Under the pieces are notes generated by a model. That model did no database searches and had not been told where the DNA came from. It was given only the letters and a program-made list of their open reading frames with translations. Positions 38,221 to 42,643 of a stretch of DNA of 64,000 bases are shown one piece after another (the stretch's first letter is position 1; the number at the start of each line of letters is the position of its first letter). Origin of the DNA: Saccharopolyspora gloriosae (GTDB lineage Bacteria; Actinomycetota; Actinomycetes; Mycobacteriales; Pseudonocardiaceae); assembly GCF_022828475.1 (NCBI RefSeq), contig NZ_CP059557.1, positions 3,023,470-3,087,469 of the forward strand. Direction: 5' to 3'. Made by a program: the position numbers and the translations under genes.

Positions 38221-38221
38221 C

Positions 38222-38246
38222 TGGTGTCCGAGGCCGGAGTCGAACC
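38222..38246 (-). other. tRNA 3'-end-like sequence, candidate att site
   Basis: On the minus strand this reads GGTTCGACTCCGGCC followed by TCGGACACCA: a T-loop (TTCGA) and a CCA-terminated acceptor strand. The bases that should form the 5' part of a tRNA (up to about 38297) do not pair with it, so it is not a complete tRNA gene. Tyrosine integrases commonly use tRNA 3' ends, and the integrase gene lies on the expected side. Confidence 0.35.
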
Positions 38247-38647
38247 AAAGGCCCAGCCTCTCGTGGTTACTGGCAGGATTGGCGTGCTCAGGCTCTGATC
38301 AGGCTTTTCGCTTCTCGTGGCCGATGCTTACGTGACGGACCGCAGGGCATGCACACGAGCTACGTGGCCGTCATCTAATTCCCAAATACCACACCCCTCG
38401 CAACACGCGGCAAAACCCCAGCTCAATACAACCCGCGCCGTCCGCACGTCTACGGTCCGGTCGAAGTCCGAAGACATGGAACGCCGCGGCTTCCTGGAAG
38501 CGGGCGGTGAGGCTGCGCCGGATGTGCGCGCGCATGAGATCGCGTGCTCCAGGCGCATCGATCCAGTCCGATCCGTCGGTAGCGGTCGGACTTGTCCCAG
38601 ACGTCGTCGAGAAAGGCCGGAGAAGCATGCCAGCGGCGAGTCGTTCC
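38247..38647. other. Intergenic stretch without a supported gene
   Basis: Short frames occur on both strands but none has a good ribosome site or recognisable domain. It separates the integrase module from the STAND/cyclase operon, whose last stop is at 38648. Confidence 0.45.
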
Positions 38648-40678
38648 TCATTGTTCAGGGGCCAGCCCGAACCTCCTGTAAAGGTTCTTTAAGGTTACGA
38701 ATGCGCGGTTGATTCGTTGTGTGTTTCCGGGGAACACCTTCTTCCAGTGCTGGAACAGCGCTCGGGCGCGCTCGAGCTCGGGGACCACAGCGAACAGGAG
38801 CTGGGCGAAGCCGACCGCCTCATCGCTCGTCGGATCTGCTGCACTCCGGGCACTGAGTTCGAGCAACGCGTGCAGCGATTCCGCACGCTTGTTCTGGTCT
38901 TGGAACAGCCGACCGAACAGCTTGGCCACCAGCCGCGTATTCGGGTCGCCGAACGAACCGCCGGCACGAATCGAGCGCAGGTAGCTGGTGCCGTGCATGA
39001 GTCCGAGAACCGCTTGCGCACAGTCGAGCCCGATGGCCCGCAGGTTCGCGCCCTGCTCCATGGAATCCGTGTCGATGGCTCGTACCCCGGTCCACTGCAC
39101 CAAGGTTCGTAGCACCTTCGTGCGATTTGCAGGCTCGTCGAGCAGGGAGATGATCGCTGCGTTCACCGCGGAGTTGAGGTTGGCGTTGGTCCGCGCGATC
39201 TTCTCCAGCTCGCGAAGCGCTGTATCGGGCTGGCGCCGTCCGTACTCGGTCGCGTAGACCGAAGCGGCAGTCCACTTGCGATGAAAGTCCCGGTCGCCGT
39301 CGCACCATTCCAGCAGCGTCGGCTCGACGACGTGCTTGGTGCGGTCGTCCCGCGCGAGCCGGCCCACGAGCTCGGCCGCCAGTTCGTTGGCGTGCCGGGA
39401 CTGCTTGGCAGCCAAGGCGCCGATGTGCGCGAGCGGTTCACTGTGCGGGACGTTGACCAGCACGTCGTGGAGCGCTTTAGCGCAGTACCACTGGAATCCG
39501 AGCTTCGCCTGCTGCGCCATCCAGTCCACGAGAACGGGGCGGAAGAGGTCGTACTCACTCCACGCCCGGCGGAATGCCTCTCGGGCCCAGTCAGAGCGGT
39601 GGAAATGCACGGCTTCCCTTGGGAATCCACTTCCGTCCGTGTCCTCGTGCGGAGTGACCGCGGCGTTGAGTCGGAAGAGGATCACCGTTTTGCTGAATTC
39701 GAAGATCTTGCGGGACTCGACGTCCTTACCGCTGTCCCGCTTGTAGATCATGTTCTCGAGGTCCTCGGCCAACTGTACGACGTCGTCGTACTCCCGGCCC
39801 TCGAACACCGCGATCGCCACGAGCATCGCGTATTCGATCGGGCTGCGCTTATCTACCTCCAGGAACCATCGGGCCACAGACGTACGAAGGTCCGACGAAG
39901 CGTCCGCGATAGCCTGCTCCTTGTCCCGGTCACCCCGATGCACCTCCCAAGCCCGGATGGCGACGAACTCGGCGTCGTTCGGCGCCGATGTGCTGGTGAG
40001 TTGTTCGCGGAATTCCGCGTCCAAGACCTTCTCGGCGGTATCCGCCGCCAGCCCGTGTTGGGAACGCAGCACGGACAAGGCCACTTGCACCGGGTCTGGC
40101 TTCCCCAGCCGCTCGGTGTACTTGCGCAGGTCGACCTCCACGCGGTGATCGACGATCACCACGACGAAGCTGTGCTGCTTCAAGGCCCAGGTCGCCACCC
40201 GGTCAACGGAAGCGGGGGTGATCTGCTCGTGCCACTCGCGGTCCAGACCCTGCCAGATGTAGCCACCCCCCGGTTCCAGGTCTGAGTCGGCAAGGCTGTC
40301 GAACGACCGGCGTTCGCTGAGGCACGAGATGGAAGCGACCGCGCATTTGGTGAGCAATCGGACGCTTGCCAGTGAGCGGCCGGTCCCGGTGTTGCGGAGG
40401 AACAGCACGCGGCTGCGTTCCAGCGTCGCCTGGGCTTCTTCGAAACCCGGGCATGGCACGAAGTGATCGCGGGCACGGGCGATCTCGGTCTCGGAGACCT
40501 GGCGGTCCTTGAGGGGCGGCTGCTTGGACTCCGCATACCAGTTGAAGATGTTGTAATCCCCGTTGAAATTCTCCGATTGGACACCGCTGTTGTGCTCGGC
40601 CGTGTTGCTCGTCGAACCACCTGGGCTGCCCGGATCCTGGGACCGGGCGGTTTCTCCGGTCTCGCTCGTCGCGGTCAA
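38648..40678 (-). CDS. STAND-like P-loop protein with N-terminal amyloid/RHIM-like motif
   Basis: A 676-residue protein with no known name. Residues 1-50 are polar and disordered but contain 'NSGVQSENFNGDYNIF' (30-45). A nucleotide-binding region follows: the Walker-A-like loop 'RNTGTGRS' (95-102) carries Arg in place of the usual Lys, and a later strand 'FVVVIVDHR' could be Walker B. The C-terminal 400 residues are helical and repeat-like, as in the sensor part of STAND/NLR proteins. Its ATG overlaps the stop of the cyclase-like gene (40675-40678), whose C-terminus carries the same GVQ-x3-FNG motif. A receptor that recruits its neighbour through matching motifs is the most economical reading. 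Whether it binds ATP is open because of the altered Lys. Confidence 0.65.
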   Translation of the reverse strand: MTATSETGETARSQDPGSPGGSTSNTAEHNSGVQSENFNGDYNIFNWYAESKQPPLKDRQVSETEIARARDHFVPCPGFEEAQATLERSRVLFLRNTGTGRSLASVRLLTKCAVASISCLSERRSFDSLADSDLEPGGGYIWQGLDREWHEQITPASVDRVATWALKQHSFVVVIVDHRVEVDLRKYTERLGKPDPVQVALSVLRSQHGLAADTAEKVLDAEFREQLTSTSAPNDAEFVAIRAWEVHRGDRDKEQAIADASSDLRTSVARWFLEVDKRSPIEYAMLVAIAVFEGREYDDVVQLAEDLENMIYKRDSGKDVESRKIFEFSKTVILFRLNAAVTPHEDTDGSGFPREAVHFHRSDWAREAFRRAWSEYDLFRPVLVDWMAQQAKLGFQWYCAKALHDVLVNVPHSEPLAHIGALAAKQSRHANELAAELVGRLARDDRTKHVVEPTLLEWCDGDRDFHRKWTAASVYATEYGRRQPDTALRELEKIARTNANLNSAVNAAIISLLDEPANRTKVLRTLVQWTGVRAIDTDSMEQGANLRAIGLDCAQAVLGLMHGTSYLRSIRAGGSFGDPNTRLVAKLFGRLFQDQNKRAESLHALLELSARSAADPTSDEAVGFAQLLFAVVPELERARALFQHWKKVFPGNTQRINRAFVTLKNLYRRFGLAPEQ

Positions 40679-41586
40679 CGCCGATCTTCACCCTGGTTGA
40701 AGCGCCCGTTGAAGGTCCCGGCCTGGACCCCAGCGTTCCTGCCGCCGACGTAATTACTCACGTTGGTGGTCGGATTCGGCGTGAAGCTGTTCCCGTCGCC
40801 GGTGACCAGATTTCCGTCGACAGTGCCCTGGTTGCTGATCGATCGCTCACCGGGTGCATGGCCGAGGCCCGAGATCGGCGTCTGCGGCGCCTCCGGTGTC
40901 GGCTCGCCGTCGATGGGGATGTTCTCTAGCTGTGTCGGGTGCACTCCGGTGATGCGGACCCACGCATCCTCGTTGAACTCGTTGTGCACAATGGGCAACG
41001 AGGCGAACTCGCCCCGCCGGAGCACCTGCGTGTAGTCACCCCCGAATACGGTCTTATACGCGCTGTTCGAGACGATCAGCGCTGTCGTCAGCGCATCGTT
41101 GGTGATGTGTTCCCGACAGTGCCGGATGACTCGCTTGAACACCTCCGCACCCAACAGCCTGTTGAGATCGATGTTCGGTCGGTGGAAGCCTCGTTCCAGT
41201 GGCAACGGCCCAAGGTGCACCGCGATCCGCAACCGCACTTCGGGTTTCGTGGACCTGTTGCGCGTGGCCAGGAGCTCGTCGAGCACGCTGACCATGTCGA
41301 TCAACGCCGGCAGGAATTCGCTCGGGTACGCGCGCAGGAATCCGTCACCGGTGAACTGCTCGTCCTGGGCTGAATCACGGTTGAGGCCGACCGCCCGCAG
41401 GGCGGCGTGTACCGGTTCCCGGACGAGATCCGGGACCTGGCCGAGGTGTTCTGGACGGCTGCCCCCCGATTCGATCATGTCCACAGCTAGTAAGGCCCGA
41501 TGCTCGGGCATCAGGGCTGGTTCTGAGCTTTCGGTCAAGGTTTCGGCTCCGTTCGGTTCGTCGCGTCGGACGGAACGGAGTTTCAT
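40675..41586 (-). CDS. Class III nucleotide cyclase-like protein with C-terminal amyloid/RHIM-like motif
   Basis: A 303-residue protein. Residues of about 28-190 look like a class III cyclase catalytic domain: a first metal Asp in 'LLAVDMIESGG' (D36), 'TGDGFL' with a second Asp (D81), then 'VRLRIAVHLGPLP' and 'NIDLNRLLGAEVFKR'. Both metal-binding Asp residues are kept, so activity is possible. A low-complexity linker rich in Asn, Gly and Thr (about 235-285) leads to 'GVQAGTFNGRFNQ' (286-298), almost the last residues. The same motif occurs in the downstream STAND-like protein. The Crp-type gene lies upstream on the same strand. Start ATG 41586, or TTG 41538 with a better ribosome site. Confidence 0.65.
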   Translation of the reverse strand: MKLRSVRRDEPNGAETLTESSEPALMPEHRALLAVDMIESGGSRPEHLGQVPDLVREPVHAALRAVGLNRDSAQDEQFTGDGFLRAYPSEFLPALIDMVSVLDELLATRNRSTKPEVRLRIAVHLGPLPLERGFHRPNIDLNRLLGAEVFKRVIRHCREHITNDALTTALIVSNSAYKTVFGGDYTQVLRRGEFASLPIVHNEFNEDAWVRITGVHPTQLENIPIDGEPTPEAPQTPISGLGHAPGERSISNQGTVDGNLVTGDGNSFTPNPTTNVSNYVGGRNAGVQAGTFNGRFNQGEDRR

Positions 41587-41644
41587 CGGACGTGCACGGC
41601 CGTGTCTCCCTTGTCCTAGGGAAATTCACGTAGTGGTCCGTTCA

Positions 41645-42505
41645 CTACCCGTGTTCGCGGTCTCCGCTATCGACGTGCTCGCGCAAGCGCACGACTGAAG
41701 GCAACACATACTTCCGCCAGTGCGTGCGCACCAGTCCGCGCCCGGTGAACTCCTTGAGCACAGCGTCGACCGTGGTCTCACCAGCACCGATGCACTGCGA
41801 CAGGTCCTTCCGGCTGAGCCCGCTGATCACGACACCCTCGGCGGTCTCGATGCCGAGCGTTTCGGACCATGCGAGAAGTTGGCGCGCCACCCGGGTTGCC
41901 ACGTTTTGGAAGGCGAAGGTCACCTGGCGGTGATCTGCCTTGCGGAGGCGATGGCGGAGGATGCCGCACAGCGCCACGAACACCGCGGGGTTCCGGTCGA
42001 GATAATTCAGGAACAGACGTCCCGAGATCCGCGTCGCCGCGCCTCGCGTGTGCGCCACCACGGTGGCGCTGCGGCGGGCACCGTCCAGCACCCCCTGGTC
42101 GCCCATCAACTCGCCCGGTCCGTAGATCCCCGCGGCGAGTTCCCTGCCCTGCCCAGGCAGCAGTACTTTGACGAGCCCCTCCTCGATTAGGAGAACGTGG
42201 TCGCTCGCCGCGTTGAAGGGGAGCAGGGTGTCGTTGCGGGCGAACCTGGTCAGGGTGCCGAGCTCGCGGAGCTGCGCGCACACCTGCTTCCCCGCCTGGT
42301 TAATGAAGGTACCGCGCGCCAACGCGTATCCGGCGTGATCGTCCCGGTTCTCCGACGCGGGCCGGACTTCGCCACCATCCAACACGGACTCCCAAAGATC
42401 AGTCTTCGACTGCTGCGGACGACCGGCGGGCCGATCGGTCACTCGATGTGGATCGTGGGCACGCGCTTGGAACAGTGCCACCAAGCTCGCTTCGCACCAC
42501 GCCAC
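41645..42505 (-). CDS. Crp/Fnr-family cyclic-nucleotide-binding regulator
   Basis: About 286 residues. A cNMP-binding beta-barrel ('LLIEEGLVKVLLPGQGRELA', 'GIYGPGELMGDQGVLDGARR', 'SATVVAHTRGAATRISGRLF') is followed by a long helix and a winged helix ('GVVISGLSRKDLSQCIGAGE', 'LVRTHWRKYVLPS'). GTG 42505 is chosen because GAGG lies upstream and it leaves the palindrome at 42530-42552 in the leader; a longer frame runs to 42565. The gene lies 58 bp upstream of the cyclase-like gene on the same strand. A cNMP sensor beside a cyclase suggests they form a signalling pair, either controlling expression of the STAND system or sensing its product. Confidence 0.8.
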   Translation of the reverse strand: MAWCEASLVALFQARAHDPHRVTDRPAGRPQQSKTDLWESVLDGGEVRPASENRDDHAGYALARGTFINQAGKQVCAQLRELGTLTRFARNDTLLPFNAASDHVLLIEEGLVKVLLPGQGRELAAGIYGPGELMGDQGVLDGARRSATVVAHTRGAATRISGRLFLNYLDRNPAVFVALCGILRHRLRKADHRQVTFAFQNVATRVARQLLAWSETLGIETAEGVVISGLSRKDLSQCIGAGETTVDAVLKEFTGRGLVRTHWRKYVLPSVVRLREHVDSGDREHG

Positions 42506-42529
42506 GTCGATTCGCCTCGTCGTACTGCT

Positions 42530-42552
42530 GTTGCACGATGCGATAGTGCAAC
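42530..42552. promoter_or_regulatory. Palindromic operator upstream of the Crp-type gene
   Basis: GTTGCAC (42530-42536) and GTGCAAC (42546-42552) form perfect 7-bp arms around 9 bases, 25 bp before the proposed start. The spacing fits a dimeric Crp-type regulator and suggests autoregulation of the operon. Confidence 0.55.
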
Positions 42553-42643
42553 ATGATCGACTCATTCATCCAGAATCGGGTCGATAATCCACACGATCAT
42601 CGCATCGACTCGATGTCGGACTGCCTGCGGGACTGTCGGTCAG

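Follow-up and report, generated by a model that had tools for sequence, protein, structure and literature searches.

What could join a STAND-like receptor, a class III nucleotidyl cyclase-like protein and a Crp/CAP-type regulator that are encoded by three consecutive genes? This question is raised by a locus of Saccharopolyspora gloriosae (family Pseudonocardiaceae; contig NZ_CP059557.1), which we analysed within a stretch of 64,000 nucleotides, hereafter the window. An earlier interpretation of the letters alone (the sequence-only reading) had described an operon of three minus-strand genes in which one motif recurs at the facing termini of the cyclase and the STAND-like protein. Both parts of this description are borne out: the genes for the Crp regulator (P0003), the cyclase-like protein (P0002) and the STAND-like receptor (P0001) lie head to tail in this order, with agreeing coordinates and a 4 nt overlap between the cyclase stop codon and the TTG-initiated STAND-like gene, and similar tags are found in the translations at the cyclase C-terminus (GVQAGTFNGRFN) and the STAND N-terminus (GVQSENFNGDYN), in pairs that outscore re-dealt ones. 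The three-gene unit is real and recurrent, and comparison of many such operons provides strong evidence that the tag similarity between receptor and cyclase is operon-specific.

Recurrence of the operon and of its matching tags

Of 200 genomes sampled in the window's family, at least 96 contain relatives of the cyclase and at least 35 relatives of the STAND-like protein; cyclase relatives also occur in at least 63 of 394 genomes drawn from its class (own genome counted), only part of the first-look candidates having been scored in these searches. The family sample comprised 39 loci (L063, L065–L102) taken from 50 listed matches at E up to 3.2e-22, of which 11 were left out (the window itself, the rest being paralogues, fragments or contig-edge hits); the addition of 13 weaker loci (L064, L103–L114), one of them (L114) without a cyclase call, brought it to 51. 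The class sample consisted of 40 regions (L163–L202), none from the window's family, with the strong matches G254, G497, G474 and G350 left out. Co-occurrence of the three gene families, which the sequence-only reading had put forward as a check, was found in part: a Crp gene upstream and a STAND gene recognised by a hidden Markov model (HMM) downstream accompany the cyclase in 20 of the 51 family and 20 of the 40 class loci, and partnerless loci remain. Counted on its own, a same-strand Crp gene lies upstream in 48/51 family loci, 24/40 class loci and 20 of the 23 class pairs defined below. When loci were seeded with the STAND-like protein instead, a cyclase was identified upstream by HMM in 16 of 30.

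The tags were scored by local alignment of cyclase C-terminal tails with STAND N-termini, and the scores of own pairs were compared with those of re-dealt pairs. Family pairs were defined by a gap of ≤60 nt and a next open reading frame (ORF) of ≥550 aa, for which 24 of 51 loci qualified (L088 was lost), and class pairs by an adjacent STAND-HMM gene, for which 23 of 40 qualified; the window pair was represented in these sets by its near-copy L102, from the same-genus genome G120. These comparisons ignore descent: related operons raise the cross scores, and a shared history of cyclase and neighbour would raise the own scores. Across the 24 family pairs the own sum reached 1748 versus 861 ± 65 on re-dealing (maximum 1205 in 100,000), the own partner ranked first in 16, and in 23 pairs shuffling the N-terminus 1000 times gave a score as high no more than 10 times. 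The 23 class pairs, all from other families, behaved similarly (1497 versus 831 ± 51, maximum 1112; own partner first in 16), with no effect when the same tails were aligned with STAND C-termini (27.3 own versus 26.7 other). Over all 47 pairs the own sum was 3122 versus 1524 ± 71 (maximum 1859), and the own partner was strictly best in 29 and within the top three in 38. Three genomes carry two operons each, and each of the six tails involved scores higher against the partner from its own operon.

The matching tags are not of one kind. A VQ tag type is common to many family operons, and other operons (e.g. L108, L109, L166, L170 and L200) carry unrelated types that nevertheless match within the operon. 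nSTAND1-WD40 proteins also occur as partners of cyclases closely related to that of the window (L065:3006-7058, L067:7431-11318 and L068:6835-9882): in L067 and L068 a second cyclase-tail tag, GVQIGDGNTQ, matches the nSTAND1-WD40 receptor, and in L065 a tag of another type matches its partner. Taken by itself, the window pair is equalled or surpassed in score by 21 of 5000 shuffled N-termini, and by 5 of 5000 when the comparison uses the final 40 residues of the cyclase and the initial 60 of the STAND-like protein. The RHIM-type core [IV]QxG, to which the sequence-only reading had pointed, is present on the cyclase tag and absent from the STAND tag.

At 747 matched residues, the codons are the same in 415, against 379 expected (sd 12.4, z 2.9). 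Some pairs look freshly copied, with 14/15 (L072) and 16/17 (L166) identical codons; the window pair (as L102) shares 6 of 11, with 6.6 expected. This points to some input from DNA copying, and codon agreement near that of independent choice suggests that most pairs have been held alike at the protein level.

Table 1 Features of the three-gene locus in window coordinates
Feature	Position	Strand	Evidence
Crp/CAP-type regulator gene (P0003)	41645..42565	-	Pfam cNMP_binding and HTH_Crp_2, PDB matches
cNMP-binding domain of Crp	about 41990-42247	-	Pfam cNMP_binding, E 1.6e-12
HTH domain of Crp	about 41678-41893	-	Pfam HTH_Crp_2, E 1.5e-7
Perfect 8-bp inverted repeat TGTTGCAC-N9-GTGCAACA	42529..42553		5' end of crp ORF; candidate operator
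Class III nucleotidyl cyclase-like gene (P0002)	40675..41586	-	predicted cyclase fold, metal Asp
Cyclase C-terminal tag NAGVQAGTFNGRFN, residues 284-297	40696..40737	-	translation, pair tests
STAND-like (probably nSTAND3-related) receptor gene (P0001)	38648..40678	-	hhalign via relative L188
STAND N-terminal tag NSGVQSENFNGDYN, residues 30-43	40550..40591	-	translation, pair tests
Degenerate Walker A NTGTGRS (Arg for Lys)	40373..40393	-	GTGR invariant in 7 rows of profile A4
Cassette common to window and G120 (locus L102)	38224..42628		blastn, 98.8% identity

A candidate signalling relay and its alternatives

Neither the cyclase-like nor the STAND-like protein matched a Pfam, NCBIfam or PADLOC family above cut-off. 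Pfam cyclase models matched none of the 34 rows of the cyclase alignment, and PADLOC models, that of the PycC-type cyclase included, gave nothing on P0002 at E up to 1, so that profile and fold evidence was needed for both proteins. Structure prediction, the check proposed for the cyclase in advance, gives a cyclase fold, with the domain at about residues 26–216; both metal Asp residues of class III cyclases (Asp36 and Asp81), already recognised from the letters, occur in 34/34 rows, as does the transition-state Arg143. The C-terminal tail (residues 228–303) is modelled with low confidence and is probably disordered. The STAND-like protein has no direct Pfam family match and no convincing match among PDB sequences. 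Its profile A4 (the window protein and six relatives, 7 rows) aligns over residues 69–523 with the relative in L188 at an hhalign probability of 92.8, and that relative matches nSTAND3 above the Pfam cut-off (E 1.9e-7); nSTAND3 appears below cut-off in L103, L104, L108 and L113, and several other relatives match nothing. The earlier description of a STAND-like P-loop protein is compatible with this possible nSTAND3 relation and needs correction at the P-loop, which reads GTGRS, the Walker A Lys not being intact; among relatives, Arg is common at that position and some carry Lys or Ala.

The regulator is what it was taken to be, a Crp-type protein with clear cyclic nucleotide monophosphate (cNMP)-binding and helix-turn-helix (HTH) domains in Pfam, and its PDB matches are Crp/Fnr-family regulators (best E 6e-18). 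Its true start codon probably lies downstream of 42565, because the listed ORF opens ~100 residues ahead of the cNMP domain. In an alignment of 34 rows, the window and L102 among them, the phosphate-binding cassette retains Arg165 and Ala167 in 34/34 and Ser166 and Glu156 in 32/34, and the window protein keeps R165, S166 and A167; to judge from these residues, the cNMP pocket is conserved.

We favour, with moderate confidence, a three-protein signalling relay of STAND receptor, tag-recruited cyclase and a Crp protein that reads the cNMP. Once triggered, the STAND-like receptor would oligomerise and present its N-terminal tag, which would recruit the matching tag of the cyclase tail, probably by amyloid-like templating, and so bring cyclase domains together. 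Class III cyclases are active only as dimers, and clustering could for that reason serve as activation. The upstream gene's product, Crp, would then sense the cNMP and change transcription, perhaps first of its own operon. What we infer here comprises tag binding, oligomerisation, templating, catalysis, the link between cNMP and Crp, and any immune or cell-death function. A broader proposal, which we hold only tentatively and as somewhat less credible than the relay itself, is an undescribed class of immune relay, in which an NLR/STAND protein would drive cyclic-nucleotide synthesis through operon-specific prion-like templating and act on a dedicated Crp transcription factor. If so, the many diverged tag pairs would act as a set of signalling channels that are insulated from one another and interchangeable, and one circuit would combine cyclic-nucleotide signalling with NLR-type receptors and amyloid-like templating. 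With some dozens of diverged matched pairs, binding specificity is directly testable.

A number of observations weigh against this relay. The own partner is not top-scoring in 7 of the 23 class and 8 of the 24 family pairs. Homologues had been expected to keep the motif; they keep the match within pairs, with no single fixed sequence, and some lack even that: L171, L172 and L174 have no useful tag match, and in L104 50 of 1000 shuffles score as high and no match was counted. Where the cyclase and STAND genes lie apart, as in six genomes, no own tail is top-scoring, the tags being alike by eye in three of the six (G126, rank 3; G109, rank 8; G057, rank 32 of 51 tails). The L102 tail ranks its own partner 3rd of 24, its tag type being common among relatives, which makes the specificity of the window tag uncertain. 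No adjacent partner was found under either pairing rule for 26 of the 51 family cyclase loci, nor a cyclase upstream by HMM for 14 of the 30 STAND-seeded loci. Within the cyclase, 31 of the 34 rows have Ile or Val at the transition-state Asn position (from sequence alignments only) and no such Asn is recognisable in the window protein, and the adenine-specifying Lys position is occupied by Gln, Glu or others; these replacements make cyclase activity and product uncertain. The Arg in place of the Walker Lys makes NTP-driven switching doubtful. Asp156 replaces the usual Glu in two of the 34 Crp rows, precisely those of the window and L102, and the inverted repeat at the 5' end of crp is common only to the near-identical L102 among at least 24 crp upstream stretches scanned.

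The partnerless loci would sit well with a housekeeping or developmental regulatory module of cAMP type that is no immune system, as would the reported influence of Crp regulators on antibiotic production in Streptomyces. We nonetheless regard such a module as unlikely, although it survives best among the alternatives, given the patchy spread of both cyclase and STAND relatives over the 200 family genomes, the occurrence of one shared cassette between unmatched flanks (see below), and the company of STAND receptors and of EAD1-cyclase-TIR relatives. The last are distant relatives (L180:6341-7846 and L196:6190-7902) in which the cyclase domain is preceded by an N-terminal EAD1 and followed by a C-terminal TIR, an architecture that ties the cyclase family to conflict systems.

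Slightly less probable still is a cyclase domain that acts as a dead nucleotide-binding scaffold, the output being a tag-built STAND/cyclase complex or a membrane partner and the Crp protein only controlling expression. The missing transition-state Asn and adenine-specifying Lys speak for it, genes after the STAND gene in other subclades, for a DUF4407 protein or for families of SPFH-like appearance, could provide the output, and several vWA-fused cyclase domains are described as looking inactive in the available text of Kaur 2020 (PMC7159879). A dead scaffold fits poorly with the invariance of both metal Asp residues and Arg143 and with the adjacent Crp gene, conserved cNMP pocket included, in 48 of the 51 family loci. 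Finally, local tandem duplication where the two genes meet could have left the matching termini as a by-product without a binding role, retained through drift or gene conversion. This idea draws on the small excess of identical codons and its strength in L072 and L166, and we consider it very improbable in view of the many pairs, the window's included, that keep residues at chance-level codon agreement and, weakly, of the tags alike in three of six unlinked-gene genomes.

Kinship with known receptor systems

Pairs of NLRs and effectors that share amyloid motifs have been described (PMC7889193, PMC8086366, PMC12261475, PMC9815663). As far as the available text goes, BASS pairs carry the motif at the NLR N-terminus and the effector C-terminus, are encoded by adjacent or overlapping genes, and fall into ten sequence-diverse motif families with actinobacteria among the hosts (PMC7889193, PMC8086366, PMC9815663); as effectors, BELL and the less frequent CHAT or TIR are named there (PMC7889193). 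The window operon resembles these pairs (Dyrka et al. 2020) in that its STAND gene adjoins and overlaps an effector gene and similar tags stand at the facing termini, and differs in having a class III cyclase and a Crp regulator where BELL, CHAT or TIR effectors are found. The word 'cyclase' does not occur in the main text of PMC7889193, PMC8086366, PMC12261475 or PMC9815663. Among the literature matches listed, as represented by titles and the starts of abstracts, there was no cyclase-Crp-STAND tag system, and a mention in the primary BASS paper is possible. The unit would offer a testable answer to the downstream role of tag-sharing NLR pairs in filamentous bacteria, described as still unexplored in the part of PMC7889193 available.

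A second likeness is to EAD systems (Kaur et al. 2020, 2021), in which, in the text available, a core component bears a copy of the same adaptor as effector or signalling domains, with cNMP cyclases among these, neighbouring copies resemble one another most, and STAND and inactive STAND proteins occur. In the same sources, fusions or EADs connect cNMP cyclases with conflict systems, and a peptide-processing system is linked to a CRP-like factor (PMC7159879, PMC8195603). EADs are small folded domains, whereas the window tag is short and lies in a tail left unstructured by the model; a search at E up to 1 found no EAD among the proteins of the window, EAD1 being confined to distant cyclase relatives.

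The resemblance to Pycsar suggested by the sequence-only reading holds in outline only, since the cNMP reader here is a DNA-binding Crp protein with an HTH and not a toxic effector; the lack of a PADLOC match on the cyclase and the presence of a STAND-like gene are further differences. Similarity to the NxGxQxGxN core of the fungal PP motif (PMC9815663, in the text available) is seen in the cyclase tag NAGVQAGTFN, and the STAND tag NSGVQSENFN departs from fungal PP and mammalian RHIM in lacking the second Gly. Most operons outside the window's family are without both patterns tested (PP and RHIM type).

The shared cassette and further arrangements

A blastn comparison of the window with 16 kb of G120 around L102 returned one stretch, which contains only these three genes and stops, at the STAND end of the operon, ~420 bp past the STAND stop codon. 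The cassette flanks in L102 have no match in the window. The genome that carries the window holds, ~38 kb away from the cassette, a 96% identical copy of part of one G120 flank; for part of the other flank, a search run without a positive control found no match there. The cassette is neighboured by Mutator-family and ISL3 transposases on one side and an integrase on the opposite side. Taken together, the sequence comparisons suggest that the Crp, cyclase and STAND genes probably moved as a single unit; a larger rearrangement may be the alternative. Carriage by a virus, phage or plasmid was rejected, a viral scan having confirmed zero relatives: P0001 had zero matches in plasmids or phages, and P0002 only 5 weak matches in plasmids, phages not having been searched for P0002. 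At the left cassette edge, positions 38221–38246 look by eye like the 3' end of a tRNA gene; a tRNA attachment site there was dropped, no tRNA gene being called in the window or L102.

The inverted repeat has no second exact copy in the genome, and a Crp regulon defined by this palindrome was discarded, since sites with 3 mismatches are not commoner than the control. PADLOC model PDLC00734, labelled PycC, matches the Crp protein P0003 instead of the cyclase; the label may belong to the cNMP-binding protein.

None of the DUF4407-type or SPFH-like-looking families was seen beside the window operon. Elsewhere, eight loci (L104, L168, L171, L174, L175, L178, L185 and L187) encode one protein family beyond the STAND gene, on the same strand and ~3 to 4 kb after the cyclase, with DUF4407 in the two members tested (L171 and L104). 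Two more families adjoining the STAND gene (9 and 11 loci) appear SPFH/Band-7-like, by eye only, and in L104 the STAND protein is fused with a member of one STAND-adjoining family. Three of the 16 class loci without a Crp gene were examined, namely L180, L196 and L183; L183 carries a GUN4-like domain. In L119 and L120, where no cyclase was identified upstream by HMM, the upstream protein ends by eye like a cyclase domain. A partner search near stand-alone cyclases showed that L088 has a STAND partner, and the top-scoring ORFs near L064 and L071 were inspected and found not convincing. The window's genome holds two more Crp-cyclase pairs, L064 (contig position ~973800) and L063 (~3773900), neither with an adjacent STAND-HMM gene, and the cyclase tail of L064 holds a VLQIG stretch.

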